Of a stretch of DNA of 64,000 bases, positions 37,908 through 54,222 are shown one piece after another; within the stretch, counting starts at the first letter, position 1, and the number at the start of each line of letters is the position of its first letter. Below the pieces are notes generated by a model. It made no database searches. It was not told the DNA's origin and saw nothing but the letters and a program-made list of their open reading frames with translations. Location: NCBI RefSeq assembly GCF_947503795.1, contig NZ_CANNEZ010000001.1, positions 1,417,001 through 1,481,000 on the forward strand. The letters are read 5' to 3'. Made by a program: the position numbers and the translations under genes. Source of the stretch: an uncultured Jannaschia sp. (lineage in GTDB: Bacteria > Pseudomonadota > Alphaproteobacteria > Rhodobacterales > Rhodobacteraceae).

Positions 37908-37923
37908 TGTGCGCAAAACGAAC
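37908..37923. promoter_or_regulatory. Island operator element a
   Basis: TGTGCG-CAAAA-CGAAC, followed three bases later by another TGTGCG half-site. It lies in the promoter region of the amino-acid transporter operon (start 37839). It matches the consensus TGTGCG-N5-(C/T)GAAC found at four other island promoters. A variant dyad close to TGTTCG-N5-CGAACA would suit an IclR-type dimer. Confidence 0.65.
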
Positions 37924-37963
37924 GTTTGTGCGAGTGAAAGCGTCGGCCAGATGCGGGCGTCTG

Positions 37964-39436
37964 TCAATGATCTCGTGCGGGGGCGTGGATCGCTTCGACC
38001 TCGATCTCCACGTCATAGGGTCCGATCAGATCGATCCCGCCCAGAAGCGTGTTGGCGGGCCGGACATGCCCCAGATAACGCGCATGGACCGCCGAGACGG
38101 CCTCCCAATCGTCTGCGTGGCGCAGGTAGACGCGGGTCCGTACGATGTCGTCGACCGTGCCGCCCAGCGCCTCGATGGCCGCGATGATCTTGTCGAACAC
38201 GTACGTCGCCTGCCCCGCCGCATCGCCCTTGCAGACGGCGTCGCCACCCGGTGCGGTCGCGGTCGTTCCGCTGACGAGGATGCGGTTGCCGTCGCGCACG
38301 GCCCGCGCGAAGCCCGCCGCCTCCTCCCAGATCGAGCCGCTATCGGCCAGCCGGCGACCGGGACGCACTTCGCGCGCGGCGAAGACCGGCGGCAGCGCGT
38401 CGAGATGGTGGCTGAGATCGCCGGAGGCCGTCAGGAAGGGCGGCTTGCGGTATTCGTCGCCGCAATCGCCGGGAATATCGTCGAGCCCGGCCAGCGCACC
38501 CGCCAGAAGCACCCGGTCGGCATCGTCGAAGCGCAACGCCTCGGCATTGAGATTGTCGGCACGGTGCTCGTTCTCGCCGAGGCGCGCGCCGATGATGGTG
38601 GCCCCGACCGCCGCGTGCGACAGCACCCAGGCCGTCGCCACGTTCGAGATCGACACGCCGTGTTTCTCGGCGACCGTGCCCGCCGCGTCGAGCAGGCGCT
38701 GGTACGGGCCCCAGCCCCCGGCCGCATCGATGAAGCGGCGGTATTTCATGCGGCTCCAATCGGCGATGTCCTCGGGCTCGGGCGCGCCGCGCCAGCGATT
38801 CGACAGGAACCCGCCCCCCAGCGTCCCGAAGGCCAGAAGCGTCACGTCGTTCGCGCGGGCGACCCGCGACAGCTCGCCCGCCGCGCGCCGGTCGAGCATG
38901 GAGAAGCAGACCTGATTGGACGCCACCTCGATCCCATGCGTGAGCAGGAGGTGCAGGTGCGCGGCGTCGAAATTCGTCAGCCCAATCTCGCGGATCAGCC
39001 CCTCCTCGCGTAGGCGCATCAGGCCCTCCATCGCGTCGAGATATTCCGGCATCTCGTAGCGCCACCAATGGAACTGCATGACGTCGACCGCCTCCAGCCC
39101 CAGCCGGTCCAGCGCCGTCTCGACGCCCCGCCGCACGACCCCGAGATCCATCGGCCCCGGTGCGGGACACCACTTGGTCAGGATCGTCGGCGGCGTCTCG
39201 CCCGCGTCGCGCATCGCCCGCGCGGCCATCCCCGCCACGATCTCGGCGCTACCGTAATGGTCGGCCATGTCGAACGTGTCGAACCCGGCGCGGGCGTAGT
39301 CCACAAGCGCCTCGGCGGCCCGGTCGAGATCCAGCGTCTTCCCGTCCCGCTCCTGGTCTGCCATCTGCCAGAGCCCGGTGATCAGCCGCCGAATGGGGAC
39401 GTCGCGGCCCAGTGTCGTCCGTTCCGGCTCGCGCAT
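37964..39436 (-). CDS. Aldo/keto reductase-RidA-like fusion
   Basis: This 490-residue two-domain protein has residues 1 to about 345 forming an aldo/keto reductase with the full tetrad: D56 and Y61 (DMADHYGSAE), K88 (ILTKWC) and H123 (QFHWW). Residues about 350-490 are a RidA/YjgF-type domain with VDDIVRTRVYLRHADDW and the end IEVEAI. The Arg needed for imine hydrolysis in classical RidA is Asn462 here (PANTLL). The start at MREPERT has AAAGGAGGTCGCG directly upstream. Such a fusion could reduce a carbonyl and shepherd the related enamine or imine. It is divergent from the AcoX-like gene across an operator element. Confidence 0.88.
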   Translation of the reverse strand: MREPERTTLGRDVPIRRLITGLWQMADQERDGKTLDLDRAAEALVDYARAGFDTFDMADHYGSAEIVAGMAARAMRDAGETPPTILTKWCPAPGPMDLGVVRRGVETALDRLGLEAVDVMQFHWWRYEMPEYLDAMEGLMRLREEGLIREIGLTNFDAAHLHLLLTHGIEVASNQVCFSMLDRRAAGELSRVARANDVTLLAFGTLGGGFLSNRWRGAPEPEDIADWSRMKYRRFIDAAGGWGPYQRLLDAAGTVAEKHGVSISNVATAWVLSHAAVGATIIGARLGENEHRADNLNAEALRFDDADRVLLAGALAGLDDIPGDCGDEYRKPPFLTASGDLSHHLDALPPVFAAREVRPGRRLADSGSIWEEAAGFARAVRDGNRILVSGTTATAPGGDAVCKGDAAGQATYVFDKIIAAIEALGGTVDDIVRTRVYLRHADDWEAVSAVHARYLGHVRPANTLLGGIDLIGPYDVEIEVEAIHAPARDH

Positions 39437-39456
39437 CGCGACCTCCTTTGCAGTTG

Positions 39457-39477
39457 CGAACATCTGTGCGCAATATG
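39457..39477. promoter_or_regulatory. Island operator element b
   Basis: This 21-base element is identical at 18 positions to 54199-54219 and contains CGAACATC followed by TGTGCGCA. The half-sites TGCGAACA and TGTGCGCA form an inverted repeat with a two-base spacer. It sits between the divergent starts at 39436 and 39514. Confidence 0.65.
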
Positions 39478-39513
39478 GCCTTGGTCTCAACCGCGAAGTT
39501 CTGGAGAGGCGCC

Positions 39514-40626
39514 TTGCGTATCGGTCTGGTGGTCAATCCCGTGGCGGGGCTGGGCGGGGCCGTGGGCCTCAAGGGCACGGACGGGCCGGGCATCGTTGCC
39601 GAGGCCCGCGCGCGCGGCGCCGAGGACCGGGCAGGCCCGCGGACGCGCACGGCGCTGGCGCGGCTGGCCGATCGCGCGCCCGGAACGCGGCTGGTCGCGG
39701 GGCCCGGTCCGCTCGGGGCCGACTGGGCCGAAGGGCTCGACCTCGAAATCGAAGCGGTCATGATCCCCGACGCGACCGGCACCGCGCGCGACACCAAGGC
39801 CGTGATCCGCGCCATCGGGCCCTGCGACCAGATGGTCTTTGCGGGCGGCGACGGCACCGCGCGCGATGTCGCGGCGACGTTGGCGGAGGGCACGCCGATG
39901 CTGGGGATCCCGTCGGGCGTGAAGATGCATTCGGGCGTCTTCGCGGTCTCGCCCGGCGCTGCGGGGGCGCTTCTGGCGGACCTCGTGACCGATCCGGCGC
40001 GCGTGACCTGGCGCGGCGAGGTAGAGATCATGGATATCGACGAGGTCGCGCTCCGCGCGGGCGTCCTCGCCCCCCGGCTCTACGGGCTGGCCACGACGCC
40101 CGGTGCGCGCAGCCTGATGCAGGCCGCGAAGGGCGGCCCGCCCGGGGACGGCGAAGGCGCCGTGCGCGCCGCCGCCGCCGCGATCGCCGCGACGATGGCG
40201 CCCGGCATCCTTTATGTCGTGGGGCCCGGCACCAGCGCCGGGGCCGTGACGCGCGCCGCGGGGTTCGAGCCGACCGTGCTGGGCGTCGACGCCCTCCTCG
40301 ACGGCAAGCGCGTCGCGCGCGACGCCACCGGGGCCGAGCTTTCCGCCCTCGCCCGCGACCGCCCCGTGCGGATCGTCCTGGGCGTGACGGGACAGCAGGG
40401 CTTCCTTCTCGGGCGCGGCAACCAGCAGATCGGGACGGACCTGATCCACAAGGCCGGGCGCGAGGGGATGATCGTGATCGCATCGCCCGAAAAGCTCGCG
40501 ACGCTCGCCGCGCCGCGCCTTCTGGTGGATACCGGCGACGCGGCGCTCGACGACGCGCTTTCGGGATTTCACCGTGTGAGGACCGGTGCGGGACGTGCGA
40601 CGATGATGCGGATCGGGACGGCCTGA
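39514..40626 (+). CDS. ATP-NAD kinase/AcoX-family protein
   Basis: This 370-residue protein of the NAD kinase-like superfamily has the diacylglycerol-kinase-type phosphate loop GGDGTARDV near residue 108 and the N-terminal RIGLVVNPVAGLGG. AcoX, encoded in acetoin-breakdown operons, is of this group and has no established reaction. The start is a TTG at 39514 behind GGAGAGGC; the ATG at 39475 lies within the operator element and has no ribosome-binding site. It lies 75 bases before the P-protein-like pair on the same strand, so a functional link with those genes is likely. Its role is unknown. Confidence 0.82.
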   Translation: MRIGLVVNPVAGLGGAVGLKGTDGPGIVAEARARGAEDRAGPRTRTALARLADRAPGTRLVAGPGPLGADWAEGLDLEIEAVMIPDATGTARDTKAVIRAIGPCDQMVFAGGDGTARDVAATLAEGTPMLGIPSGVKMHSGVFAVSPGAAGALLADLVTDPARVTWRGEVEIMDIDEVALRAGVLAPRLYGLATTPGARSLMQAAKGGPPGDGEGAVRAAAAAIAATMAPGILYVVGPGTSAGAVTRAAGFEPTVLGVDALLDGKRVARDATGAELSALARDRPVRIVLGVTGQQGFLLGRGNQQIGTDLIHKAGREGMIVIASPEKLATLAAPRLLVDTGDAALDDALSGFHRVRTGAGRATMMRIGTA

Positions 40627-40633
40627 ATTCCGT

Positions 40634-40649
40634 TGTGCGATATGCGAAC
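40634..40649. promoter_or_regulatory. Island operator element c
   Basis: TGTGCG-ATATG-CGAAC, 53 bases upstream of the ATG at 40702. It is one of the best matches to the shared element and lies directly in the short gap between the AcoX-like gene and the P-protein-like pair. Confidence 0.65.
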
Positions 40650-40701
40650 TCTTGTTTAAGTTGATGCGACTGCCCCCGCGCCCTGATCCGAGGAGTGACC
40701 C

Positions 40702-42108
40702 ATGAGCCAAGACACCCAGTCCCATCCGTGGATGGCGAACTCCGCTCCGGGCGCATTGCAGGCGATGCTGGACGAGATCGGAGCCCGCGACGCGCGCGAG
40801 GTATTCGCGCAGATCCCCGAGGATCATTTTCGCACGACCCCGCTCGACCTGCCGCCCGCGCTGACGTCCGAGCTGGCGCTCAAGCGCGACCTCGTGGGCA
40901 AGCTGAAGAAGAATGCCGATTGCGAGGCCAATCTCAGCTTTCTGGGTGCCGGCGTCTGGCAGCACCATGTCCCCGCCGTCGTCGACGAAATCGTCGGCCG
41001 GACCGAGTTCGCGACCAATGTCTGGGGCAGCTACCAGTCCGATCACGGCCGCAACCAGGCGTGGTTCGAATTCTCGTCGCAGCTCGGTGCGCTTTTGAAC
41101 CTCGATGTGGTGCAGCTCCCGGTCTATTCCTGGGGCTGTGCGACGGGGCACGCGATCCGGATGGCCGCGCGCATCAATGGACGCACGAAGGTCCTGATGC
41201 CGCGCCTGAGCGACCCCGAGCGCCTGTCGGTGATCGGCACCTATTGCAAGCCGACCCAGATGGATGGCCATATCGAGATCGTGCTGGTCGATGCCGATCC
41301 GACCAGCGGACGGCTGGACCTCGGCGACCTCAAGTCCAAGCTCGGGCCCGACGTGGCCGCCGTCTATTTCGAGAACCCCGCCTATTTGGGCACGATCGAG
41401 ACCGAGGCGGCCGAGATCGCGCGACTGACCCGTGCTGCGGGCGCCGAGACCATCGTCGGCGTCGATCCCATCAGCCTCGGAGTGATGACCGCGCCGGGGG
41501 ATTACGGCGCCGACCTCGTGACCGGGCCGGTGCAGCCACTGGGCGTTCACATGCAATGCGGCGGCGGCGCGGGCGGCTTCATCGCCTCGCGCGATGAGGA
41601 GACATACGTCCTCGAATACAACGGCTTCCTCGTCTCCATCGCCGAGACGGTCGAGCCGGGGCAGCATGCCTTCGGCCTCGCCTGCCCGCACCAGAACTCC
41701 TACGGCTCGCGCGAGCACGGCAAGGACTGGACCGGCAACTCGACCTATCTCTGGGCCATCGCGGGCGCGGTCTACATGAGCCTGCTGGGGCCGCAGGGCT
41801 TCCGCGAGGTGGGCACCCTGATCGTGTCGAACGCGCGGTATGCGGCCAAGATGCTGGACCGCGTGCCGGGTGTCCGGGTCGTCTGGCCCGACACGACCTT
41901 CAAGGAATTCGTCGTCAATTTCGACGACACCGGCAAGACGGTGGCCGAGATCAACGACGCGCTGCGCGCACGGGGCATCTTCGGCGGCAAGGATGTCTCG
42001 GGCGAGGACGGCGCGCTGGGGCAGTCGGCGCTCTACTGCGTGACCGAGGTGCACACGGCGGGCGACATTCACCACTTGGCCGATACCCTCACGGAGGTGC
42101 TCGCATGA
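40702..42108 (+). CDS. Diverged glycine-decarboxylase P-protein subunit 1-like enzyme
   Basis: This 468-residue homologue of GcvPA, the N-terminal half of the PLP-dependent P-protein, has FLGAGVWQHHVPAVVDEIVGR in the place of the canonical GAGCYDHYIPAVV block. The canonical TPYQPEISQG loop is changed to NVWGSYQSDHGRNQ. The rest of the fold (YFENPAYLGTIE, GVHMQCGGGAGGF) is kept. Family members decarboxylate glycine and pass the aminomethyl group to lipoyl-H-protein. No gcvH, gcvT or lpd is present nearby. With its partner (four-base overlap) it may act on another amino acid. Confidence 0.85.
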   Translation: MSQDTQSHPWMANSAPGALQAMLDEIGARDAREVFAQIPEDHFRTTPLDLPPALTSELALKRDLVGKLKKNADCEANLSFLGAGVWQHHVPAVVDEIVGRTEFATNVWGSYQSDHGRNQAWFEFSSQLGALLNLDVVQLPVYSWGCATGHAIRMAARINGRTKVLMPRLSDPERLSVIGTYCKPTQMDGHIEIVLVDADPTSGRLDLGDLKSKLGPDVAAVYFENPAYLGTIETEAAEIARLTRAAGAETIVGVDPISLGVMTAPGDYGADLVTGPVQPLGVHMQCGGGAGGFIASRDEETYVLEYNGFLVSIAETVEPGQHAFGLACPHQNSYGSREHGKDWTGNSTYLWAIAGAVYMSLLGPQGFREVGTLIVSNARYAAKMLDRVPGVRVVWPDTTFKEFVVNFDDTGKTVAEINDALRARGIFGGKDVSGEDGALGQSALYCVTEVHTAGDIHHLADTLTEVLA

Positions 42109-43664
42109 CCCGCATTCCCGACTTTCACGCCGCCAAATGGGACGAGCCCGTCATCTACGAGATCGGCCGCCCCGGTGCGCGCGGACAGATCTTCGACGCG
42201 CCCGACGCGCGGGTGACCGAGGCCGTCGGAACCGACCTGATCCCCGCGGCGATGGCCCGCAGCGACGCACCCGCCCTGCCCGAGATCACCGAGTTCGAGG
42301 CGCAGCGCCATTTCCTCCATCTCAGCCAGATGACGCTGGGCATGATGGGGATCAGCCTCTTCGGCACCTGCACGATGAAGTACAACTCCAAGGCGGCCGA
42401 ATACGCCACGCTCCGGCCCGAGCTGGCCGAGGTGCATCCCTTCCAGCATCCCGACACGCTGCAAGGCGTGCTCGAGATCATCCACGATTTCGACGGTATC
42501 CTGCAGAGCCTGTCGGGCATGGACCAGTTCATCTTCCAGGCCGGCGGCGGGGCCGATGCGGCCTACACGATGGCGACGGTCGCGCGCGCCTACTGGGCTG
42601 ACAAGGGGATGCTGGGACAGCGGACCGAGATGGTGACCAGCGTCCAGGCCCATCCCTGCAACCCGGCGACGGCGGCGGCAGCGGGGTTCGACGTCGTGAA
42701 CCTGCCGCTCGAGGAGAACGGCTATCCTTCGCTCGACGCGCTGAAGGCCGCGATCAGCGAGAAGACCGCGCTCATCATGATCAACAACCCCGACGACATG
42801 GGCATCTACAATCCCGAGATAAAGGAATGGACGCGGGTCGCGCGCGAGGCGGGCGCGCTCTGCTTCTACGACCACGCGAATTTCAACGGGGTGATGGGCA
42901 AGCTCTCGGCGCGCGAGCTGGGCTTCGACGCCTGCATGTTCATGCTCCACAAGACCTTCGGCGCGCCCAAGGCCGGCGGCGGCCCCGCTGTGGGCGCCTT
43001 CGGATGCACCGACGACCTCGCGCCCTACGTCCCCGGCCCCGTCGTCGTGAAGGAGGGCGACCGCTACCGCCTCGACGAGGACCGCCCGAAATCCACGGGC
43101 AAGGTCCGCGAATACTGGGGGAACGTCCCGCAGGTGGTGAAGGCCTATGCCTGGAGCCGCGCGATGGGGGCCGAAGGCATCGACCTCGCCTCGGACATCT
43201 CGGTCGTCGCGAACAATTACATGGACAAGAAGCTGGGTGAGATCCCGGGACTGGCGATCTCCAATCCGGACATCGACGCGTGGCGGATGGAGATGACGCG
43301 CTGGTCGCTAGGGCCGCTGACCGAGGAGACGGGTGTCACGACGGTCGATTTCGCCAACCGGATGGCCGATTACGGGATCGACCCCTACTGGATGAGCCAC
43401 GAGCCGTGGATCGTGGCCGAGCCCTTCACACCGGAGGCGGGCGAGCTCTGGTCCAAGGAGGATATCGACACCTGGATCGCGGTCATCGCGAAGATCGCCG
43501 AGGAGGCGCGGAGCGAGCCCGAACTGGTCAAGACCGCGCCCCACAAGCAGCCGGTCGCGCAGGTCCGCGGCGACGTGTTCGAGGATCCGGCAAAATGGGC
43601 GATGACGTGGCGCGCCTACAAGCGCAAGATCGCGGGCGACGATGCCGCGCGCGGCGTCGCCTGA
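42105..43664 (+). CDS. Diverged glycine-decarboxylase P-protein subunit 2-like enzyme
   Basis: This 519-residue homologue of GcvPB carries the PLP site. Lys283 (FMLHKTFGAPK) is the Schiff-base lysine, Asp256 and His183 (QAHPCNPAT, canonical AHGTNPAS) hold the ring, and FGTCTMKYNSK corresponds to GSCTMKYNPK. The glycine-rich loop after the lysine is changed from TPHGGGGPG to APKAGGGPA. The subunit has a complete PLP pocket but altered substrate-facing loops, so glycine need not be the substrate. It overlaps subunit 1 by four bases and converges on the FAD oxidoreductase gene 20 bases downstream. Confidence 0.86.
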   Translation: MTRIPDFHAAKWDEPVIYEIGRPGARGQIFDAPDARVTEAVGTDLIPAAMARSDAPALPEITEFEAQRHFLHLSQMTLGMMGISLFGTCTMKYNSKAAEYATLRPELAEVHPFQHPDTLQGVLEIIHDFDGILQSLSGMDQFIFQAGGGADAAYTMATVARAYWADKGMLGQRTEMVTSVQAHPCNPATAAAAGFDVVNLPLEENGYPSLDALKAAISEKTALIMINNPDDMGIYNPEIKEWTRVAREAGALCFYDHANFNGVMGKLSARELGFDACMFMLHKTFGAPKAGGGPAVGAFGCTDDLAPYVPGPVVVKEGDRYRLDEDRPKSTGKVREYWGNVPQVVKAYAWSRAMGAEGIDLASDISVVANNYMDKKLGEIPGLAISNPDIDAWRMEMTRWSLGPLTEETGVTTVDFANRMADYGIDPYWMSHEPWIVAEPFTPEAGELWSKEDIDTWIAVIAKIAEEARSEPELVKTAPHKQPVAQVRGDVFEDPAKWAMTWRAYKRKIAGDDAARGVA

Positions 43665-43684
43665 CGGCCGTGGCGCATGCGCGC

Positions 43685-44824
43685 TCAGTCGTAAAGGACC
43701 GAGATCCCGTCGAGGGGGACAGTCGGTGCGCGCCCCAGCACGAGATCGGCCACCACGCGCCCCGTCATCGGGGCCGCGCTGAACCCGACCCAAGGAAAGA
43801 TCGCGAGGAAGAAGCCGGGCACGCCCGGCGCTTCGCCGATGATGGGGCGCCAGTCCGGCGTGCCGTTGACCCAAGCCGTCCAGCTCCGCAGCGCGCGGGC
43901 CTGCCCGAGGACGGGCACCACGTCGGCCGCGATGCCCATGTTCGCCGCGAAATTCGCCGGATCGGTGGCGAGGCCGCCATCGCCGTGCACTCGCGCCGCC
44001 CAGCCGCCCCCGATCACGCAGCCGCCGTTCGGGGCCTGCTTCAGCGACAGCTTTCCGGCCGCGGAATAGACGAGATGCGGGATCAGGGGTGCCACCGGCT
44101 CGGTCACCGTGACCTGCAAGGGGAAGCCGCCCAGATCGATCGGGACCCCGACCATGGCCGCGCAGTCCGCCGCCCGCGCCCCGGCGGCATCGACGACGCG
44201 CGCCGCACGGACCGCGCCGCCCGGCGTGGCCAGCGCGAAGCCCTGTGCGTCCCGTGCGATCCCCGTGACCGTGGTGCGGGTGCGAATGTCGACACCCGCC
44301 GCCACGGCCGCGCGGGCCAGCGCCGGGGTCGCGCGCAGCGGATCGGCCTTGCCCTCGCCCGCGCAGAAGCCGCCGCCGATGGCCGCATCCGACAGGTATG
44401 GTGCGACCGCGCGCAGCTCGTCGCGGCCCAGCACTTCGGTCACGATGCCGACGGACGCCTCGATCCGCGCCTTGGCCGCGATGGCGCGCATCTGCGCGTC
44501 CGTGCGCGCGACCACGACCCCGCCCTTGACGCGGACGTTCAGGTCTTCGCCCACGGCCTCCGACATCTCCTGCCAGAGGTCGATCGACGCCGCGAGGAAT
44601 CGCAGCGTCGGCGCATAGGCCCGCGCCCAGGCCTCGCCGTACTTCACGAATTCCGGGTACTGGATTTGAAGGTGCAGAGACCCGGCATTGGCCCCCGATG
44701 CCTCGGCCCCCAGATCGCCCGCCTCGAGCAGGACGACCGACGCGCCGTCCCGCGCCAGATGCCAGGCCGCCGTCAGCCCGACGAGGCCGCCGCCCACCAC
44801 CGCCACATCATACGCGGCCGTCAC
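43685..44824 (-). CDS. FAD-dependent amine/amino-acid oxidoreductase (DadA/glycine-oxidase type)
   Basis: This 379-residue DAO-family flavoprotein has the dinucleotide motif VAVVGGGLVGLTAAWHLA at the N-terminus, ANAGSLHLQIQYPEF after it, and the C-terminal FPWVGFSAAPMTGRV block that closes the FAD site. It is similar to the beta-subunit-like gene at 52075 (both have NAGSLHxQ). Expected chemistry is oxidation of a secondary or D-amino acid to an imine. It is divergent from the DapA-like gene, only 29 bases apart, and lacks a visible copy of the shared operator. Confidence 0.87.
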   Translation of the reverse strand: MTAAYDVAVVGGGLVGLTAAWHLARDGASVVLLEAGDLGAEASGANAGSLHLQIQYPEFVKYGEAWARAYAPTLRFLAASIDLWQEMSEAVGEDLNVRVKGGVVVARTDAQMRAIAAKARIEASVGIVTEVLGRDELRAVAPYLSDAAIGGGFCAGEGKADPLRATPALARAAVAAGVDIRTRTTVTGIARDAQGFALATPGGAVRAARVVDAAGARAADCAAMVGVPIDLGGFPLQVTVTEPVAPLIPHLVYSAAGKLSLKQAPNGGCVIGGGWAARVHGDGGLATDPANFAANMGIAADVVPVLGQARALRSWTAWVNGTPDWRPIIGEAPGVPGFFLAIFPWVGFSAAPMTGRVVADLVLGRAPTVPLDGISVLYD

Positions 44825-44853
44825 GCCGCCATCACTCCCAGAAGGACCGTGCC

Positions 44854-45810
44854 ATGAGACCCCAATATTCCGGCAGCCATACCGTCACCGTCACGCCCTT
44901 CACACCCGGCGGGGCCGAGATCGACTACGAGGCGTGGGAAGGATTCCTCGAGTGGCAGGTCGAATGCGGCGTGCCGGGGGTCATCATCCTCGGGACGACG
45001 GGTGAGTTCCTGACGATCAGCGACGCCGAGCGCACCGCCTTCGTGCGCCACACGGTGAACTACGTGAACGGGCGCATGGTGGTCTGGGTCGGCACCATGG
45101 ACGCCTACACCCCCAACGCCGTACGCTATTCCAGGGAGGCGGAGGATCTCGGAGCCGACGGCCTGATGATCATCCCGCCCTATTACATCACGCCGACCGA
45201 CGACGAAATCTTCGGGTACTACCGCGCCATCTGTGAGGCGCAGGACCTCCAGATCATGCTCTACAACAACCCGTTCACCTCGAACGTGGACATGTCGGCC
45301 AAGCTGGTCGGACGCCTGGCCAAGAACTTCGAGCAGATCCGTTACATCAAGGAAGCCAGCCAACGCATTGAACGCATTTACGATATCATCGTCGAGAGCG
45401 AGGGCCACATGCACCCCTGGGCCGGTCAGCGCGTGCTCGAAAGCTACAAGATGGGGGCCGAGGGCTACGTGAACCCTTATGGCAACTACATCCCACGCGC
45501 GTCCGTGAAGTTCGTCGAATGGGCCGAACAAGGCCGCTGGGACGATGTGCAGCGCGTGCAGGACGTCATCTCGCAATTCGACACGATCATCGTCGAGGGG
45601 CACCCGCTCTATGGGCACCAATGCTACTCCAAGGCGCTGGCGGCGGCGGCAGGGCATTCCGTGGGCGACGTGCGCGCACCGCTGACCACCTACGAGAGCC
45701 TCGGGGACGAGGGACGCGCGCGGGTCGCGAAGATGGTGCCGCTGATGGCCGAGCTCGACCGCATCGTGGACGAGATCGAGGCCCGTCCGGCGGCGGCCGC
45801 GGCCGAGTAG
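44854..45810 (+). CDS. DapA-family lyase 1
   Basis: This 318-residue TIM-barrel Schiff-base lyase of the dihydrodipicolinate synthase/N-acetylneuraminate lyase family has Lys166 (IRYIKEAS) and Tyr137 (LYNNPFT), plus the GTTGEF carboxylate loop at 47-52. The family covers synthases, aldolases and deaminating dehydratases, including the deaminase of hydroxyproline breakdown. The start at MRPQYSG has AGAAGGAC upstream. Its position beside a FAD imine-forming oxidase supports a deaminase or retro-aldol role over lysine synthesis. Confidence 0.87.
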   Translation: MRPQYSGSHTVTVTPFTPGGAEIDYEAWEGFLEWQVECGVPGVIILGTTGEFLTISDAERTAFVRHTVNYVNGRMVVWVGTMDAYTPNAVRYSREAEDLGADGLMIIPPYYITPTDDEIFGYYRAICEAQDLQIMLYNNPFTSNVDMSAKLVGRLAKNFEQIRYIKEASQRIERIYDIIVESEGHMHPWAGQRVLESYKMGAEGYVNPYGNYIPRASVKFVEWAEQGRWDDVQRVQDVISQFDTIIVEGHPLYGHQCYSKALAAAAGHSVGDVRAPLTTYESLGDEGRARVAKMVPLMAELDRIVDEIEARPAAAAAE

Positions 45811-45812
45811 GC

Positions 45813-46586: not shown

Positions 46587-47689
46587 CGCGCGTCCCGCTT
46601 CACGAAGGGTGTCGATGCGAGCTTGGGGTTGCAGCGCGCATAAGGCGCCGGCATCGCAATTTCGGCGCCCAGCGTCTCGGCCGCCTTCCAGGTCCAGTTC
46701 GGGTCCCAGAGCATGCCCCGCGCCAGCGCTACCATATCCGCCTGCCCGGTCCGCACGATCGTCTCGGCCTGAACCGGGTCGGTGATCTGGCCCACTGCCA
46801 TGGTGGGGATGTCCGCCTCGGCCCGGATCTGGGCCGAGAAGTCGAGCTGGTAGCCGGGGCCGGTCTCGATCTTCTGCGACTGGTCGATGCCGCCCGAGGT
46901 CACGTCGATCATGTCGCAGCCGCGCGCCTTCAGCTCCCGGCAGAAGGCCACGGACCCGTCGATGTCCCAGCCGCCCTCGATCCAGTCCGAGGCCGAAAGG
47001 CGCACCATCACGGGCTTGTCGTCGGGAAAGGCGTCGCGCACCGCGTCGAACACCTCGAGCGGAAAGCGCATCCGGTTCTCCAGCGCGCCGCCATAGGCGT
47101 CGTCCCGGCGGTTGGTCACGGGCGAGAGGAACTGGTGCAGCAGGTATCCGTGGGCGGCGTGAAGCTGCACGGTATCGAAGCCCGCGCGATCCGCCCGCCG
47201 CGCGGCGTCGGCGAAGGCGTTCCGCACGCGGTCCAGATCGTCCGGGCCCATCGCTTCGGGCTCCGGCCAGCCGGGCAGGTACGCGACCGCCGAGGCCGAT
47301 TGCGGCTGCCATGCGCCCTCGCCCTCCAGAAGGCCGCCGCCCTCCCACGGGGGCACCGTATTCCCCTTCCGGCCCGAATGCCCGAGCTGCATGCCCACCC
47401 GGCTGTCGCCCACCGACTTGATGAAGCCGACGATCCGGGCCCAGGCCGCCTCGGTCGTGTCGTCATACATGCCCGTGCAACCCGGCGTGATGCGCCCGTC
47501 GGGCTCGACCCCCGTGGCCTCGGTGAAGATGAGACCCGGTCCCGCCGTGGCGAAGCGACCGAGATTGACGAGATGCCAGTCCTCGGGGACGCCATCCGTC
47601 GCGGAATACTGGCACATCGGGGCGACCGCGATCCGGTTGGGAACGGTCAGGGCGCGCAGCTGGATCGGCGCGAAGAGGTGTGGGGGCAA
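46583..47689 (-). CDS. Old Yellow Enzyme (NADH:flavin oxidoreductase, YqjM type)
   Basis: This 368-residue FMN TIM-barrel ene-reductase has Cys26 in APMCQYSA, the hallmark of thermophilic-like/YqjM OYEs, and the HAAHGYLLHQFLSP motif (His177 and His180 bind substrate). IDVTSGG and ALARGMLWDPNWTWKAA end the barrel. The start is a TTG at 47689 with GGAGG seven bases upstream; no ATG fits. The enzyme reduces activated C=C bonds or works in reverse on amines. It is divergent from the isomerase gene across operator element d. Confidence 0.9.
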   Translation of the reverse strand: MPPHLFAPIQLRALTVPNRIAVAPMCQYSATDGVPEDWHLVNLGRFATAGPGLIFTEATGVEPDGRITPGCTGMYDDTTEAAWARIVGFIKSVGDSRVGMQLGHSGRKGNTVPPWEGGGLLEGEGAWQPQSASAVAYLPGWPEPEAMGPDDLDRVRNAFADAARRADRAGFDTVQLHAAHGYLLHQFLSPVTNRRDDAYGGALENRMRFPLEVFDAVRDAFPDDKPVMVRLSASDWIEGGWDIDGSVAFCRELKARGCDMIDVTSGGIDQSQKIETGPGYQLDFSAQIRAEADIPTMAVGQITDPVQAETIVRTGQADMVALARGMLWDPNWTWKAAETLGAEIAMPAPYARCNPKLASTPFVKRDAR

Positions 47690-47751
47690 GGATGACCTCC
47701 GATGGATACGATTGACGTTGCCCGGCGGCACCCGTGCGGTATAGTAACTTT

Positions 47752-47767
47752 TGTGCGTAAAATGAAC
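47752..47767. promoter_or_regulatory. Island operator element d
   Basis: TGTGCG-TAAAA-TGAAC. It lies 42 bases before the isomerase start (47809) and 63 bases before the divergent OYE start (47689). It shares the upstream run CTTT with element e. Confidence 0.65.
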
Positions 47768-47808
47768 ACGCATGCTAGATTTGGACAAGCGGAAAAGGAA
47801 GACCCTCC

Positions 47809-48654
47809 ATGACCAAGCTCGACGTCGCGGCCAGCACCTTTCCCTTCTTGTATTCCCATGACGGCCTCGATGCACTGAAGCATCTGCACGGCCTCGGCTA
47901 CGACATCTTCGAGCTGATGATCTTTCCGCCGCATTGCTGGCCGGGCGAGTTGAGCGCCGAGCAGCGCCGCGCCTACAAGACCTGGCTCGACGGTGAGGGC
48001 GTGCGGCTGTCGTCCTTCTGCTACCCGCTGCTCGACAACAATCCGAACTCCACCGACAAGCTGATGCGGGACTACACGCTCGACCGCTACAAGGAGGCCG
48101 TGGATTTCGCGGCCGAGCTGTCCTGCCCCTATGTCATCTCGATCCCCGGCCCGGTCGGCACGCTGATCAACCCGCCGAAGGAGTGGATGCTGAACTGGTA
48201 TGTCGAGGCCATGCAGGAGCTGTTGGGCCATATGAAGGGCACGGGTGTCGAACTTCTGCTGGAGAACGTGCCGTTTACCTACCTGCCCTCGGCGCAGGAC
48301 ATGGTCGACACCGCCAAGCTGATCGGCCCCGAGGTCGGCATCAACTACGACGTCTGCAACGGGGCCTTCATCAACGAGGACCCCGCCGCCGCCATCCGCA
48401 TGATGGGCGACATGGTCAAGAACGTGCACATTTCCGACAGCGGCCCGACCGAGTTCAAGCACGACCGGCTGGGCACCGGCATCGTCGAGCCCGGCCCCGC
48501 GGCCGAGGCGCTCCGCGATATCGGCTATACCGGTGTGACCGTGATGGAGATCATCACCGACGCGAACCAGCCCGGCGCCGATCCCGACGGCGACATCAAG
48601 GCGTCCCACGCGATCCTGGCCGAGGCCGGGTGGGAGCCGCTGGCCGCGCGCTAG
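47809..48654 (+). CDS. Sugar-phosphate isomerase/epimerase-family TIM barrel
   Basis: This 281-residue AP-endonuclease-family-2-type barrel belongs to the group of IolE/hydroxypyruvate isomerase/tagatose epimerase enzymes. Visible metal-site residues include Glu in LLLENVPFTY, Asp in INYDVCNGA, His in NVHISDSG and Glu in VMEIITDAN. The substrate cannot be assigned; a keto-enol isomerisation or dehydration of a sugar-like acid is expected. Its stop shares CTAG at 48651-48654 with the convergent SDR gene. Confidence 0.87.
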   Translation: MTKLDVAASTFPFLYSHDGLDALKHLHGLGYDIFELMIFPPHCWPGELSAEQRRAYKTWLDGEGVRLSSFCYPLLDNNPNSTDKLMRDYTLDRYKEAVDFAAELSCPYVISIPGPVGTLINPPKEWMLNWYVEAMQELLGHMKGTGVELLLENVPFTYLPSAQDMVDTAKLIGPEVGINYDVCNGAFINEDPAAAIRMMGDMVKNVHISDSGPTEFKHDRLGTGIVEPGPAAEALRDIGYTGVTVMEIITDANQPGADPDGDIKASHAILAEAGWEPLAAR

Positions 48655-49391
48655 ACCAGCCCCGCCTCGACCGGCAGGACGCAGCCTGTCATCCCGACCG
48701 AGGCGTCCGATGCGAGGAAATGCGCCACCCGCGCGACGTCCCCTTCGGTCGCCATCCGCCCGAGCGCGGTCTCGGCATCGAGCGCGGCCAGCGCCTCGTC
48801 CAAGGTCGGGCCGCCCGTCTCGTGGCGCGCGGCGATCCGGGCGATCAGCGCGTCGGTGGCGATCGGTCCGGGTGCGACGGCATTCACCCGGATGCCCGAT
48901 GGCCCGAGGTCGAGCGCGGCGGACCGGACGATGCCGATGACCGCGTGCTTCGACGCCGTATAAAGCGTCTGCGCGGGGTGCGCGCGGTAGCCGTTGATCG
49001 AGGCCATGGCGACAACGGACGCATGCTCCGAGCGGGCCAGCGCGTCGGCGCATCCCCCGATCGCAGCCGCGACGCCCCAGGTGTTCACGGCCATGACATG
49101 CCGCCATTCCGCGCCATCGATCTCGCGCAGGCCGCGCCAGGGCGGAACGACGCCCGCATTCGCCACGAGGATGTCGAGCCCGCCCAGCCCGTCGGCGATC
49201 CGGGCCATCCCGATGCGCGCATCCTCGCCCGAGAGGTCGAGCGCATGGCCCGGATACCGCCCGTCCGCCCGCTCCAGCGCCTCGGCCAGATCGACGATCG
49301 TGACCTTGGCCCCTGCCGCAGCCAGCCGGTCCGCGATGGCCCGCCCGAGGCCCGCCGCCCCGCCGGTCACGATGGCCCGGCGTCCGTCCAT
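48651..49391 (-). CDS. SDR-family oxidoreductase
   Basis: This 246-residue short-chain dehydrogenase has TGGAAGLG near residue 9, ANAGVVPPWRG near 83, Ser in AMASINGYRAHP and YTASK. IVDLAE after strand two predicts NAD. It begins at MDGRRAIV. It is divergent from the gulonate-dehydrogenase-like gene with element e between them, and it shares its stop tetranucleotide with the isomerase gene. Confidence 0.88.
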   Translation of the reverse strand: MDGRRAIVTGGAAGLGRAIADRLAAAGAKVTIVDLAEALERADGRYPGHALDLSGEDARIGMARIADGLGGLDILVANAGVVPPWRGLREIDGAEWRHVMAVNTWGVAAAIGGCADALARSEHASVVAMASINGYRAHPAQTLYTASKHAVIGIVRSAALDLGPSGIRVNAVAPGPIATDALIARIAARHETGGPTLDEALAALDAETALGRMATEGDVARVAHFLASDASVGMTGCVLPVEAGLV

Positions 49392-49451
49392 GTCTTGTGC
49401 TACGTCCAAACTGGGGCGATCCTTCTTGCGCTCGGAATTCTTTCGTACTTT

Positions 49452-49467
49452 TGTGCGACATGCGAAC
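49452..49467. promoter_or_regulatory. Island operator element e
   Basis: TGTGCG-ACATG-CGAAC. It lies 20 bases before the GTG at 49487 and 61 bases before the divergent SDR start at 49391. Five central bases apart, it is the same as element c. Confidence 0.65.
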
Positions 49468-49486
49468 CATTGCAAGGAAAACAGCC

Positions 49487-50431
49487 GTGGCCCCGACGAT
49501 CACCACGCTTATCCTCGGGGCCGGCGGCATCGGCACGTCGTTTGCCGCGGTGTTCCGGGACGCGGGCGCGACGGTCCACCTGGTGGACCCCGATGCAGGC
49601 GCGCGGGATGTGGCCCTGGGCCGGATCGCCGCCCACGCCGAGGCGATCTCGCTGTCGGGGCAGTCGAGAGGCGGCGCAGGTGCCGTGCATCTTCAGTCCG
49701 ACATGGCGGAGGGGTTGGCCGCCGCCGATCTGGTCCTCGAATGCGGGCCCGAAGACCTTGCGTTCAAGCAAGTGGTCTTTCGCAAGATGCTGGACGGGGC
49801 GCGCGCGGATGCCGTGCTCGCGACCGCCTCCTCGGCGATCCCGATGTCGCGGATCGTGCCCGACACGGCCGATCAGCGCCGGTGCCTCGTGGCGCATCCG
49901 GTCAATCCGCCCGCCGTACTCCGGGTGGTCGAACTCTGCCCCGCGCCCGGCACCGATCCCGCCACGATGACCCGCGCGACCGACCTGCTGACGGCTGTCC
50001 GGTTCGTGCCGGTCGCGATGCAACGCGAGGTCGAGGGCTTCCTCCTCAACCGCCTGCAAAGCGCCGTGCTCCGCGAGGCCTATCGGCTGGTGGACGAAGG
50101 CGTGGCGGATGTGGACGCGCTCGACACCGTGATGCGGCTGGGGCTGGGGCCCCGCTGGGCGCTGTCGGGACCGTTCGAGACCGCCGAGCTGAACACGCCC
50201 GGCGGGATCGCCGCCCATGCCGCGCGGATGGGTCCGGCCTATGCGCGGATCGGGGCCGCGCGGGGCGAGACGGTGGACTGGCACCCTGACCTCGTGGCGC
50301 GCGTCGCGGCCGAGCGCACCGCCCTCCGCGCTGGACAGTCGCGGGGCGCGCGTCGCGCCTGGCGCACCCGCGCCGTCGCACGGTTGGTCGCGGCCCGCGA
50401 CGCGCTGATGGACGATCCCGATGGAGGGTGA
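49487..50431 (+). CDS. 3-hydroxyacyl-CoA/L-gulonate 3-dehydrogenase-family enzyme
   Basis: This 314-residue NAD-binding protein of the 3-hydroxyacyl-CoA dehydrogenase superfamily has the Rossmann motif LILGAGGIGTSFA near residue 8, ATASSAIPMS and HPVNPP with the catalytic His, and the C-terminal EGFLLNRLQSAVLREA. GLGPRWALSGPFETAELN is the pattern of lambda-crystallin/gulonate 3-dehydrogenase and carnitine dehydrogenase rather than fatty-acid enzymes. The start GTG has AAGGAAAAC upstream; the ATG at 49460 falls inside the operator. It overlaps the next gene by 11 bases. Confidence 0.86.
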   Translation: MAPTITTLILGAGGIGTSFAAVFRDAGATVHLVDPDAGARDVALGRIAAHAEAISLSGQSRGGAGAVHLQSDMAEGLAAADLVLECGPEDLAFKQVVFRKMLDGARADAVLATASSAIPMSRIVPDTADQRRCLVAHPVNPPAVLRVVELCPAPGTDPATMTRATDLLTAVRFVPVAMQREVEGFLLNRLQSAVLREAYRLVDEGVADVDALDTVMRLGLGPRWALSGPFETAELNTPGGIAAHAARMGPAYARIGAARGETVDWHPDLVARVAAERTALRAGQSRGARRAWRTRAVARLVAARDALMDDPDGG

Positions 50432-52088
50432 GTTCGTCTTCGAGGGCCGATCCGTGCCCTTCCGCCCCGGCCAGACGCTGGCCGCCGCGCTCACGGCGGC
50501 GGGCGCGCGGGCATTCCGCGAGACGGCGAGCGGCGGCACACGGGGCGTCTTCTGCGGAATGGGCGTCTGCCAGGATTGCCTGCTGAGCGTCGACGGCGCG
50601 CCGAACCATCGGGCCTGCATGACGCCGGCGACGGCGGGGGCCGTGGTCGCGCGCCAACCCGCCCATCCCGCGCTGGACCCGAAGGCGGAGGTTGCGACCC
50701 CGCCCGATGCGCTCATCCTCGCGCCCGACGTGGCGATCCTCGGTGGCGGGGCGGCGGGCCTCTCGGCCGCGATCGCCGCCGCCGAAGCCGGGGCGGACGT
50801 GGTCCTTCTGGACGAGCGGAAGGTCGGCGGCGGGCAGTATTACAAGCAACCCGCCGAGCAGCCGATGCTTGATGCCCAGCAGGCCGAGGGCGCGGCCCTT
50901 CTGCGTGCGGCGTCGCAATCGGGTGCGCGTATCCTCACCGGTGTCGAGACCTGGGGCGCCTTCGATGGCCCCGTTCTGATGGCGCAGGCGGACGGGCGCG
51001 CCGTGATCCTCCGCCCGAAGGCCGTGATCATGGCGACCGGCGCCTATGAACGGCCGATCATGGTGCCGGGCTGGACGCATCCGGGCGTGATGACGACGGG
51101 CGCCGCACAGACGCTCTGGCGCAGCTACCGCGCCCTGCCCGGCGCCCGCGTGCTGGTCTGCGGCTCGGGGCCGCTCAACGTGCAGGTGGCGGTCGAACTG
51201 GCCGAGGGGGGCGCCGATATCGCGGCCGTGGCCGAGACGGCGCCCGCGCCCTGGGCGCGCCCCGGCGCGGCGCTGGCCATGATGCGTGCGGACCCGGCAC
51301 TGGCGCGCAAGGGGCTGGGCCTGATGGCCCGGCTGCGGAAGGCTGGCGCAGCGGTGCGATACGGCACGCGGCTGACGCGGGTCGACGCGGTGGATGGCGG
51401 GCTGCGCGCCACGCTGGCCGAGAAAGGCGGCGGGACGCATCAGGTCGAGGTCGACGCCATCTGCATGAATGACGGCTTCCTGCCGCAAAACGAAGTCCTG
51501 CGCCTTCTCGGGGCCGAGATGCGCTTCGATGCGGCGTACGGACATCTGCGCTGCGCGCGCGGGCCGGACATGGCCACCAGCGTGGCGGGCATCTTCGCTG
51601 CCGGGGATTGCGCCGGTCTGGGCGGTGCCCCCGCCGCGCGGGTCGAGGGCCGGATCGCGGGACGGGCGGCCGCGCGCTTCGCGGGACATGGCGGGGCAGA
51701 CACCACGGGCGCGTCCGAGACCGCCGAACTGGCGAAGCACCGCCGCTTTCAGGACGCGCTCTGGCGGCTCTACGATCCGGGGCCGCAGGCGCTGGACGAC
51801 ATGCCCGGCGAGACGATCATCTGCCGCTGCGAGGAGATCACGCTCGACCGGGCACGCGCCTCGATCGGGACGGATGCGGGCCACGCCGGCACCCTGAAGC
51901 GCGCGACGCGGATCGGGATGGGCCGCTGCCAGGGGCGGTATTGCGGCCCCGTGGCCGCCCGCCTGGTGGCCGAGGCGAACGGCACCCCGCTGGACGACCG
52001 CAGCTTCTATGCACCGCGCGTGCCGGTGAAGCCGGTGGCCATCTCGGCCATCCTCGCGGCCCAAGAGGCGCTGGATGGAGACGCCTGA
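50421..52088 (+). CDS. Fused 2Fe-2S/FAD imino-acid oxidase alpha subunit (HcnAB/OoxA-like)
   Basis: This 555-residue protein joins three parts. Residues 1-85 are a 2Fe-2S ferredoxin domain (Cys45, 50, 53, 66; HcnA-like). Residues about 100-430 are a pyridine-nucleotide-disulfide-type FAD/NAD domain (VAILGGGAAGLSAAIAAAEAG). The C-terminal BFD-like domain has Cys468, 470, 503 and 508. The arrangement matches the alpha and gamma parts of hydrogen-cyanide synthase, octopine/nopaline oxidase and D-hydroxyproline dehydrogenase complexes. It overlaps the catalytic beta-like gene by 14 bases. Its role is electron transfer from an amino- or imino-acid oxidation. Confidence 0.88.
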   Translation: MEGEFVFEGRSVPFRPGQTLAAALTAAGARAFRETASGGTRGVFCGMGVCQDCLLSVDGAPNHRACMTPATAGAVVARQPAHPALDPKAEVATPPDALILAPDVAILGGGAAGLSAAIAAAEAGADVVLLDERKVGGGQYYKQPAEQPMLDAQQAEGAALLRAASQSGARILTGVETWGAFDGPVLMAQADGRAVILRPKAVIMATGAYERPIMVPGWTHPGVMTTGAAQTLWRSYRALPGARVLVCGSGPLNVQVAVELAEGGADIAAVAETAPAPWARPGAALAMMRADPALARKGLGLMARLRKAGAAVRYGTRLTRVDAVDGGLRATLAEKGGGTHQVEVDAICMNDGFLPQNEVLRLLGAEMRFDAAYGHLRCARGPDMATSVAGIFAAGDCAGLGGAPAARVEGRIAGRAAARFAGHGGADTTGASETAELAKHRRFQDALWRLYDPGPQALDDMPGETIICRCEEITLDRARASIGTDAGHAGTLKRATRIGMGRCQGRYCGPVAARLVAEANGTPLDDRSFYAPRVPVKPVAISAILAAQEALDGDA

Positions 52089-53199
52089 CGTCATCGTCAT
52101 CGGCGGCGGTATCGTGGGCCAGGTCGCGGCGATCGAGATCGCGGCCACGGGGGCGTCCGTCACGCTGATCGACGCCGGGACGAACGCGGGCTCGACCGCC
52201 AATGCCGGGAGCCTGCACGTCCAGATGCAGAGCCGGATCATGCGGCTCAACCCCGAACAGGTGCCCGCGATCGAGGCGTCGTTGCCGCTCTACCGCGCGG
52301 CGGTCGCCGAATGGGAGCGGTTGGACCGCGCGCACGGGCCCTTCGGGTTGGTGCGCAAGGGCGGGCTGATGGTGGCCGAGAGCGCGGAGCAACTGGCGTT
52401 TCTCGAAGGCAAGGCGGAGCGCGAGGCGCGGCAGGGTCTCGACGTCGACATCCTCGATCGGGACGCGCTCGACCGGATTGCGCCGTGGCTGGGGCCGCAT
52501 GTGGTGGGTGCCGAGCTGTGTCGCGACGAGGGCAAGCTCGACCCGCTGGCCGCCAACCTCGCGCTCCGGGCCGAGGCGCGTCGGCTGGGGGTTCGCATCG
52601 TGGCCGACGATATCGCGGCGCTCGAGCCGGGGCCGCGGGTCACCGTCCGGGGGGGCCGCGAGACCTATGCCGCCGACCGCGTGGTCGTCGCCGCGAGCTG
52701 GGGCAGCGGGCCGCTTCTGGCGTCGCTGGGGCTTGCGATGCCGACCGTGGCCGAGCCTTTGCACATGAACATCACCGAGCCCTGCGCCGTCGCGGTCGCC
52801 CATCTCGTGCAGCATGCCGAGCGGATGATCACCCTCAAGCAAATGGCGTCGGGCCAGATCGTCATCGGGGGCGGCTGGCCCGCGCGGGGCCGCGGGCGTG
52901 CCGATCCCCCGCAGGTCGATCCCGCGTCGATGCTGGCCAACGTGGCATTGGCCGGCCGGCTGGTCCCTGCCATCGGGCACATGCGGATCCTGCGGACCTG
53001 GGCGGGCATGAACACGACGATCGACGGGATCTCGACGGCAGGCCCGGTGCCCGGTCACCCGCGCGTCGTCGTCGCGGTACCGGGGGATGCGGGCTATACG
53101 CTGGGGCCGTTGGTGGCGCGCATGGCGGCAAGCTTCGTCACCGGGGCCGCGCCGCCGGTCGATCCCGGGCCCTACACGCCGGCGCGCTTCGCGGCCTAG
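52075..53199 (+). CDS. FAD-dependent imino-acid oxidase beta subunit (HcnC/OoxB-like)
   Basis: This 374-residue DAO-family flavoprotein has the motif VIVIGGGIVGQVAAIEIA at the N-terminus, STANAGSLHVQMQ, and the end block VAVPGDAGYTLGPLVARMA. Such subunits carry the substrate site and oxidise a D- or N-substituted amino acid, passing electrons to the alpha subunit. The gene follows its partner with a 14-base overlap. Its stop shares CTAG at 53196-53199 with the convergent IclR gene. Confidence 0.88.
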   Translation: METPDVIVIGGGIVGQVAAIEIAATGASVTLIDAGTNAGSTANAGSLHVQMQSRIMRLNPEQVPAIEASLPLYRAAVAEWERLDRAHGPFGLVRKGGLMVAESAEQLAFLEGKAEREARQGLDVDILDRDALDRIAPWLGPHVVGAELCRDEGKLDPLAANLALRAEARRLGVRIVADDIAALEPGPRVTVRGGRETYAADRVVVAASWGSGPLLASLGLAMPTVAEPLHMNITEPCAVAVAHLVQHAERMITLKQMASGQIVIGGGWPARGRGRADPPQVDPASMLANVALAGRLVPAIGHMRILRTWAGMNTTIDGISTAGPVPGHPRVVVAVPGDAGYTLGPLVARMAASFVTGAAPPVDPGPYTPARFAA

Positions 53200-54074
53200 T
53201 GGCCGGTCTTGAGCGCGTCGCTGATGTTCTGCGTCGTCGCGAAGAGCTTCGGCAGGATCGTCTCGATCATCTGCTCGACCGGCATCCGCATGCTGGGGAC
53301 GCCGACATTGATCGCACCGACGAGTTCGCCCGAGCTCATCCGGACGGGCACCGAGATCGAGATGAGGCCGAGCTCCAGTTCCTGGTCGACGAGCGACCAA
53401 CCCTTCTGGCGCACTTCTTTGAGGACGCGGCGGAACCTGGATTTCTGGGTGATCGTATGCTCGGTCATCTTCTTGAGCTCGATCTCCTCGATCATCGCGT
53501 CCCAGTGCTCCGGCGCCGTGTTGGCCAGCAGCACGCGGCCGTTCGCCGTGCAATGCGCCGGGAAGCGCGCACCGACCGAGATGCCGACGGAGATGATGCG
53601 GTGATACTGGGTGCCGCCGACATAGACGACGTCGAACTTGTCGAGGATCGCGGCCGAGACGCTTTCCTGGATGTCGTCGGAGAGGTGGGCGATGAAGGGG
53701 CGCGCGATATCCCAGACGCCCTTCGACGACAGGATCGAATAGCCCAGCTCCAGCACCTGCGGCGTCAGGTCGAAGAGCTTGCCGTCGGTGACGGCATAGC
53801 CCTCGTGGACCAGCGTCAGAAGGATGCGGCGCGCGCCTGCGCGGGTGTTGCCGGTCTCGGTTGCGACCTGGCTCAGCGTCATCTTGCGGCCGGTCCGGTT
53901 GAACGCGCGCAGCACCTCGAGCCCACGGGCCAGCGAGTTGACGTAGTCGCGCGGATTGACCGACGGGTCGTCCTCGGTCGCGTCGCTGCGCCCGCCGGAC
54001 ATCAGCCCCGCGGAGGGGAACGTCTTCTCGCCAACGTCCTGCGCGACATCGTCCTTCCCGAATTCCTGTCCCAT
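53196..54074 (-). CDS. IclR-family transcription regulator
   Basis: This 292-residue regulator has an N-terminal winged helix (RDYVNSLARGLEVLRAF, then TLSQVATETGNTRAGARRILLTL) and an IclR effector domain with SAAILDKFDVVYVGG and GRVLLANTAPEHW. It resembles the PcaU/PobR group. ATG 54074 is chosen because GGGAAGAATTTT precedes it; 54110 has no ribosome-binding site. It is the only regulator in the island and faces the sugar-type ABC operon across operator element f, so it is the natural candidate for binding all six elements. Confidence 0.88.
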   Translation of the reverse strand: MGQEFGKDDVAQDVGEKTFPSAGLMSGGRSDATEDDPSVNPRDYVNSLARGLEVLRAFNRTGRKMTLSQVATETGNTRAGARRILLTLVHEGYAVTDGKLFDLTPQVLELGYSILSSKGVWDIARPFIAHLSDDIQESVSAAILDKFDVVYVGGTQYHRIISVGISVGARFPAHCTANGRVLLANTAPEHWDAMIEEIELKKMTEHTITQKSRFRRVLKEVRQKGWSLVDQELELGLISISVPVRMSSGELVGAINVGVPSMRMPVEQMIETILPKLFATTQNISDALKTGH

Positions 54075-54198
54075 AAAATTCTTCCCGTCCCGAAGATTTA
54101 GCGGTCTCATAGCGATGCGTGGGCGTCCCTACCAGATCGGAGCCGGGTTCGCCGCCCGAAAATCCTCCTTGCCAGACGCCGCTCTGCAGGTGTTATAT

Positions 54199-54222
54199 CG
54201 AACATCGGTGCGCTATGTGAAC
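54199..54222. promoter_or_regulatory. Island operator element f
   Basis: CGAACATC-GGTGCG-CTATG-TGAAC combines the extended form seen in element b with the N5-(C/T)GAAC form seen in a, c, d and e. A further TGTT half-site lies just upstream (54191). It is 22 bases from the binding-protein start at 54244 and lies in the divergent region of the IclR gene. Confidence 0.68.

Follow-up and report, generated by a model that had tools for sequence, protein, structure and literature searches.

The window analysed here, a 64,000-nucleotide stretch of an uncultured Jannaschia sp. (contig NZ_CANNEZ010000001.1, positions 1,417,001 to 1,481,000), contains a gene island with one gene for an IclR-family regulator and, in six promoter regions, a shared operator-like element. 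When the upstream sequences of relatives are placed side by side, this element has the layout YGNAC-N4-GTKCG-N5-YGAAC, in which three boxes of alternating direction are separated by spacers of 4 and 5 bases. From its sequence, the system is a computationally well-supported, putative IclR regulon with PcaU-type operators in a predicted catabolic island. The regulator gene and the six sites are given below, with the name of each promoter class, its score in the operator matrix described in the next section and its score when its own class was left out of that matrix.

53196..54074, minus strand: gene of the IclR-family regulator, PcaR/PcaU/PobR subfamily (alternative start 54110)
37909..37932, minus strand: three-box operator CGCAC-AAAC-GTTCG-TTTTG-CGCAC before the 37839..31411 operon (SBP3); 29.1, left out 26.1
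39457..39480, plus strand: operator between the AKR/RidA gene (minus) and the NAD-kinase-like gene (plus), in which boxes 1-2 are intact (CGAAC-ATCT-GTGCG) and box 3 has degenerated (NADK); 21.5, left out 18.1
40635..40658, minus strand: operator with boxes 2-3 intact (GTGCG-ATATG-CGAAC on the plus strand) and the outer box degenerate, before gcvPA-gcvPB (GcvPA); 26.0, left out 20.4
47734..47767, plus strand: four-box operator GTGCG-GTATA-GTAAC-TTTT-GTGCG-TAAAA-TGAAC between the FMN-oxidoreductase gene (minus) and the TIM-barrel gene (plus) (TIM); 29.5 at 47744-47767, left out 21.3
49444..49467, plus strand: three-box operator CGTAC-TTTT-GTGCG-ACATG-CGAAC between an SDR gene (minus) and the 3-hydroxyacyl-CoA-dehydrogenase-like gene (plus) (HCDH); 28.5, left out 23.6
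54199..54222, plus strand: three-box operator CGAAC-ATCG-GTGCG-CTATG-TGAAC between iclR (minus) and a substrate-binding-protein gene (plus) (SBP1); 29.1, left out 27.7

An earlier note on this DNA had reported TGTGCG-N5-YGAAC at 37908, 40634, 47752, 49452 and 54207, together with a sixth site at 39457 whose half-sites stand in the opposite order. Both observations are correct: the first four copies are exact, the last has one mismatch, and the sixth, CGAACATCTGTGCGCAATATG, shares 18 of 21 bases with 54199-54219. The claim of a single element at six promoters stands in that the matrix picks up no other place in the window, and changes in that the unit is the three-box operator, of which the pattern first described is boxes 2-3; the plain 16-bp element was dropped after the side-by-side view of relatives. 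This layout also explains the odd sixth site, which is boxes 1-2 of an operator whose box 3 has decayed in the window and which keeps all three boxes in one relative (L055). Box 1 is present in most relatives at SBP1, SBP3 and HCDH, and reads GTAAC or similar at TIM. The outer box of the GcvPA operator lies on the opposite side, where it reads GTGCA in several relatives and has decayed in the window, so that two of the six operators in the window, this one and 39457, have a degenerate box.

All six sites are intergenic if the start codons at 37839, 39436, 39514, 40702, 47690, 47809, 49391, 49487, 54074 and 54244 are correct. Their placement in promoter-type gaps, as the earlier note had it, depends on these starts, since the longest open frames would cover several of the sites.

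Rarity and conservation of the operator

The operator matrix has 24 columns; 67 distinct sites, all of them from relatives, served to train it, and the window was scanned afterwards with a match threshold of 14. One set of relatives comprised 30 loci with 63-76% identity in the IclR protein, including Rhodobacteraceae, a Roseibium metagenome-assembled genome and Microvirga; a second set comprised stretches from 12 family genomes, some of them the same genomes as in the first (loci L001-L030 and L045-L068 overlap in this way). Nine window positions score at least 14, namely the six places listed above (29.5, 29.1, 29.1, 28.5, 26.0 and 21.5) together with three shifted registers of them. No unrelated place in the window scores above 10.9 and the maximum over 12 Markov shuffles is 13.8, while the window sites still score 18.1-27.7 when each promoter class is left out in turn. 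The coding DNA of the relatives holds 6 matches in 620,236 bp.

Conservation at orthologous promoters, which had been proposed as a check of the element, is extensive. With the class under examination left out of training, 105 of 112 distinct promoters of relatives score at least 14 (SBP1 29/29, SBP3 5/5, GcvPA 8/11, TIM 27/27, HCDH 29/30, NADK 7/10); identical upstream sequences were counted once in this tally, and near-identical pairs such as L025/L027 were kept. The three promoters missed at GcvPA seem to be those of loci L063, L065 and L067 of the sister clade, where gcvPA lies close behind the NAD-kinase-like gene. Identity between the window and its relatives, measured for four promoter classes other than GcvPA, is 88-93% in the boxes, 61-71% in the spacers and 25-56% in the neighbouring stretches. 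With a simple core pattern, in loci where both flanking genes were matched, the element was found in 24/24 SBP1/IclR gaps, 21/25 HCDH/SDR gaps, 21/23 TIM/FMN gaps and 0/23 DapA1/DAO1 gaps. The operators are kept at orthologous promoters through rearrangement.

Pattern counts bear on whether the sites could be chance or repeat-derived sequence devoid of regulatory function. The exact pattern occurs 8 times in the 3.46-Mb genome, with 4 of these matches inside one 11.6-kb stretch of the window, and a tighter pattern, GTKCGNNAWRYGAAC, has 7 exact genome matches, 5 of them in the window, although this pattern was built from these very sites and is not independent of them. By these pattern scans of the genome, the element is not equally frequent outside the island, a result that the earlier note had made a test of its proposal. 

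Several observations weigh on the other side. Five matches to the one-mismatch pattern in 64 kb is a weak result, as 15 of 100 shuffles reach five; across the genome, this pattern gives 79 matches versus 42 for its read-backwards control; and the reversed-order pattern alone, with up to three mismatches, is at chance level (89 matches versus 78 expected). Seven of the 112 promoters of relatives have no matrix match, and in the window itself the 39457 operator is without box 3 and the outer box of the GcvPA operator is degenerate. Outside the window, nine places were inspected, of 28 listed there for the tighter pattern and 74 for the one-mismatch pattern. One of the nine is intergenic and scores as well as 39457:

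L071 (G000:C1:978200-980700), 1244-1267: operator-like isolated site with box 1 missing, score 21.2, at C1:979451 between P-II and YjeF genes

Among the other inspected places, two look real and adjoin the island (L075 and L072, both also contained in L078), four (L070, L073, L074 and L076) have no matrix match of at least 8, and L077 has matches of 14.7 and 9.2; the site at C1:1671831 (14.7) falls just inside a predicted reading frame. The strength of the observation comes from exactness and context and not from the one-mismatch count. As orthologous promoters keep the sites through rearrangement, with boxes far more conserved than their flanks, and as sites are rare in coding DNA, an origin by chance or from repeats has a negligible probability in our estimate.

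The island regulator and the genes behind the putative operators

The IclR protein of the island matches HTH_IclR (PF09339, 51.7 bits) and IclR_C (PF01614, 132.6 bits), both over cut-off. It belongs to the PcaR/PcaU/PobR subfamily (TIGR02431, 300.6 bits, cut-off 284.75), and scores 127.9 bits with the BhcR model NF045644, below the cut-off of 350. A Pfam scan of 40 reading frames between 29463 and 63753, some of them alternatives of one gene, with frames shorter than 100 residues and one permease frame left out, found no other DNA-binding domain, in agreement with the proposal that this protein is the only regulator of the island.

Co-occurrence ties the element to this gene. Among 295 family genomes, the IclR protein (E <=1e-60) and GcvPA (E <=1e-80) are found in the same 13. 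The tighter pattern averages 1.34 matches per genome in the 282 genomes that lack the island IclR gene and occurs at least four times in 10 of the 13 that have it versus 16 of the 282; the 12 IclR-bearing relatives exceed those 282 genomes in motif count (Mann-Whitney p = 2e-8, for a pattern made from window sites). Two facts temper this: genes that belong to one cluster can be expected to occur together to some extent, and the genome has three other IclR_C matches, two of which are complete IclR proteins, so that the element could be bound by a regulator encoded outside the island. We consider this improbable: the two other proteins are only 25-27% identical to that of the island, their 3.5-kb loci hold no matrix site of at least 8, the element follows the island IclR gene across the 295 genomes, and it lies in the gene's own divergent promoter in every locus where both genes were matched.

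The genes that accompany the six sites in the window are as follows; the limits of the two predicted operons were drawn from same-strand adjacency only and are provisional.

31411..37839, minus strand: predicted operon for an amino-acid-type ATP-binding cassette (ABC) transporter, GST, SDR, trans-3-hydroxy-L-proline dehydratase and two SnoaL proteins
37964..39436, minus strand: aldo-keto reductase/RidA fusion
39514..40626, plus strand: NAD-kinase-like protein
40702..43664, plus strand: GcvPA/GcvPB-like pair
43685..45810, divergent: genes for an FAD oxidoreductase (DAO1) and a DapA-like protein, which lack an operator in this clade
45813..47690, minus strand: FMN oxidoreductase and SDR
47809..48654, plus strand: xylose-isomerase-like TIM barrel
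48651..49391, minus strand: SDR
49487..53199, plus strand: 3-hydroxyacyl-CoA-dehydrogenase-like gene and two-subunit FAD amine-dehydrogenase-like genes
54244..63172, plus strand: predicted operon for an ABC transporter, DapA-like protein, two SDRs, class III aminotransferase and polysaccharide-deacetylase-like protein

The permease frame at 35631-36311 was recognised through comparison with relatives and not by Pfam. Of 20 island proteins run against NCBIfam, matches over cut-off to specific models were obtained for trans-3-hydroxy-L-proline dehydratase, GcvPA, GcvPB, PcaR/PcaU/PobR and one unnamed aminotransferase subfamily. The dehydratase (32385-33422; NF047722, 581 bits, cut-off 550) is a clue to the substrate or to a branch of the pathway. 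The GcvPA/GcvPB pair lies beside the NAD-kinase-like gene (39514-43664) inside a catabolic island, and because the Pfam scan of the 40 frames showed neither a GcvH nor a GcvT domain, the pair may act on something besides glycine cleavage. Adjoining the deacetylase-like gene is a stand-alone GAF-domain protein (63163-63753, a weak Pfam match), and in L067 the deacetylase-like gene likewise has a partial match (56%) next to it.

The proposed reach of the regulon, from about 31.4 to 63.2 kb, holds in that the operators precede the predicted operons of 31411-63172, and falls short in that further sites lie past the window. Two more three-box sites, 3 and 13 kb beyond its end, precede oligopeptide-type ABC genes (L078, G000:C1:1480501-1500000):

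L078:3727-3750: TGAAC-TTTC-GTTCT-TATAG-CGAAC, score 23.9, between an ABC permease gene and an SBP_bac_5 gene
L078:13788-13811: AGAAC-AACT-GTGCG-CGGTG-CGAAC, score 20.7, before a second SBP_bac_5 gene

One relative, G002, has orthologues of both SBP_bac_5 genes, each preceded by a site (24.0 and 18.6). The predicted operon of the second transporter ends in an M24 creatinase/prolidase-like gene, and a gene for a beta-keto acid cleavage enzyme (BKACE; L078:13964-14791) adjoins the extended regulon.

The suspected exception, the FAD/DapA pair, is real in this clade, where the window's DAO1 and DapA1 upstream regions score -1.3 and -10.5, and does not extend to the sister clade, where DAO1 stands behind an operator. 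A hidden operator at the pair was considered and is ruled out for this clade: the matrix finds none at DapA1 (0/29) or at DAO1 outside the sister clade (0/26), against 3/3 for DAO1 within it. In the three sister-clade genomes (L064, L066, L068), the island is rearranged: DAO1 now lies next to TIM under a common operator, SDR2 has the HCDH operator in common with that gene, and there is a second site in the IclR gap. Elsewhere among the relatives, the full matrix gives 1/6 upstream of GST (L045, 27.2), 3/27 upstream of SDR2 (sister clade), 3/29 upstream of DAO1, 2/29 upstream of ABCp1 (14.2 each, in L025 and L027, which are nearly identical) and no match upstream of the remaining genes. A shorter form of the island, with operators, is present on plasmid pAMI4 of Paracoccus aminophilus (L079), where the 40.9 kb fetched holds no annotated DAO1, DapA1, FMN oxidoreductase or SDR2 gene; this copy suggests horizontal movement.

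Promoters and mode of control

The position of an operator relative to the promoter indicates what a bound regulator might do. Three promoters or promoter-like blocks were located beside window operators:

37939..37967, minus strand: promoter TTGACA-N17-GACGCT, a short way upstream of the operator at 37909-37932 (SBP3)
47718..47745, plus strand: promoter TTGCCC-N16-TATAGT, its last two bases in box 1 of the 47744 operator (TIM)
54169..54198, plus strand: promoter-like TTGCCA-N18-TTATAT, ending at the 54199 operator (SBP1)

At SBP3, the best pair is TTGAC[A/G/T]-N17 followed by a weak −10 hexamer, whose first base is 11 or 12 bases ahead of box 1 in 6/6 sequences, the window included. At TIM, 15/28 sequences have their best pair at the offset seen in the window, with a TTG-type hexamer followed, after N16, by a TATAGT-like hexamer that ends inside box 1. 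The TIM promoter is the sole sigma-70-type match in 37700-54400, where 1.2 are expected from shuffles, and it is therefore its placement and conservation that carry weight and not the existence of a match. At SBP1, box 1 is immediately preceded by TTATAT in 16/30 sequences by manual count, usually with a TTGC block upstream. The operator thus overlaps the promoter or start site clearly at SBP3 and TIM, and likely at SBP1.

Because the boxes lie over the predicted start site, repression is suggested at these three promoters. We consider it likely that the PcaR/PcaU/PobR-subfamily protein made in the island binds the three-box operator at eight promoter regions, six in the window and two beyond, and represses them until an intermediate of the pathway releases it. 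At the best-defined promoters, where the operator covers the predicted transcription start, at the −10 hexamer or shortly after it, the bound regulator would most likely act by blocking RNA polymerase; an intermediate, probably a small carboxylate, would then free the operators, and transport and catabolism would be switched on together.

The same protein could instead be an inducer-dependent activator, or could use different modes at different promoters. PcaU and PobR, of the same subfamily, are activators, and the search for promoter pairs in relatives found no consistent pair at HCDH and GcvPA; at SBP1, the automatic search did not converge on TTATAT, the commonest offset being −8 (8/30). 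PcaR itself is an activator or a repressor depending on the position of its site (PMC12455658). Control at HCDH, GcvPA and 39457 may accordingly be by activation or mixed. As a general account, this alternative is the less likely one, if a serious one, given that a protein bound at or just downstream of the −10 hexamer at SBP3, TIM and probably SBP1 is expected to block the polymerase. The regulon would link about 30 window genes, mostly for unassigned enzymes and transporters, as well as the oligopeptide-type ABC genes outside it, in one probably co-regulated pathway, and co-regulation would offer a direct route to the substrate by way of the inducer. That the substrate is a ring compound or a methylated amine is speculation.

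Comparison with PcaR, PcaU and other IclR systems

Among the closest known relatives of the island regulator is PcaR of Pseudomonas putida, also an IclR-family protein, whose solved structure (8eju) the island protein matches at 176 bits. The reported PcaR palindrome is GTKCG-N5-CGMAC, 15 bp long, and the PcaR operator GTTCGATAATCGCAC fits it (both PMC12455658). The same source names Y151, T177, S240, N257 and S259 of PcaR as the residues that hydrogen-bond succinate, of which alignment finds four of the five kept in the island protein, as Y151, T176, S239 and N256, and the counterpart of S259 not kept; this hints at a small carboxylate as the effector. Unlike PcaR, which controls beta-ketoadipate genes, the island regulator is accompanied by three-box operators instead of a plain palindrome, and no beta-ketoadipate pathway gene was seen by Pfam name among the 40 island frames. 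By sequence and by its putative operators, it is a relative of PcaR, PcaU and PobR, and its island showed no beta-ketoadipate genes in that scan.

PcaU, PobR and HmgR are regulators of aromatic catabolism, and TIGR02431 is named for the first two of these and PcaR. For the group that includes PcaR, PcaU and PobR, the motif GTNCG-N5-6-CGNAC has been described, to which a further half-site on the outside is added in the case of PcaU, PobR and HmgR (PMC8222616). The window sites match this motif, some with T for the C of CGNAC, and carry the additional half-site next to the palindrome at a fixed distance. They differ from these systems in the many operons served and in the position of the operator, which is that of a probable repressor. 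Among the open-access PMC articles that literature searches listed, no title or abstract opening describes this regulon, although it may be among the 4,809 sites in the supplementary tables of PMC8222616. It is possible, if on balance doubtful, that an undescribed catabolic pathway, which moves horizontally and comprises about 40 genes, several ABC importers among them, has captured a PcaR/PcaU-type regulator, and that its three- and four-box operators allow promoters to differ in the pair of boxes they use.

A close parallel to the operators themselves is the set of 32 IclR orthologous groups for which three-box sites have been predicted (Suvorova and Gelfand 2021, PMC8222616), with which they share three boxes of alternating direction and both consensus pairings. 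If the island regulator does bind its putative operators, the use of boxes 1-2 at one promoter and of boxes 2-3 at others would be a natural test of the alternative, two-way dimerisation that has been published, and is still unproven, for IclR proteins, and these mixed pairings would supply the operator set for it.

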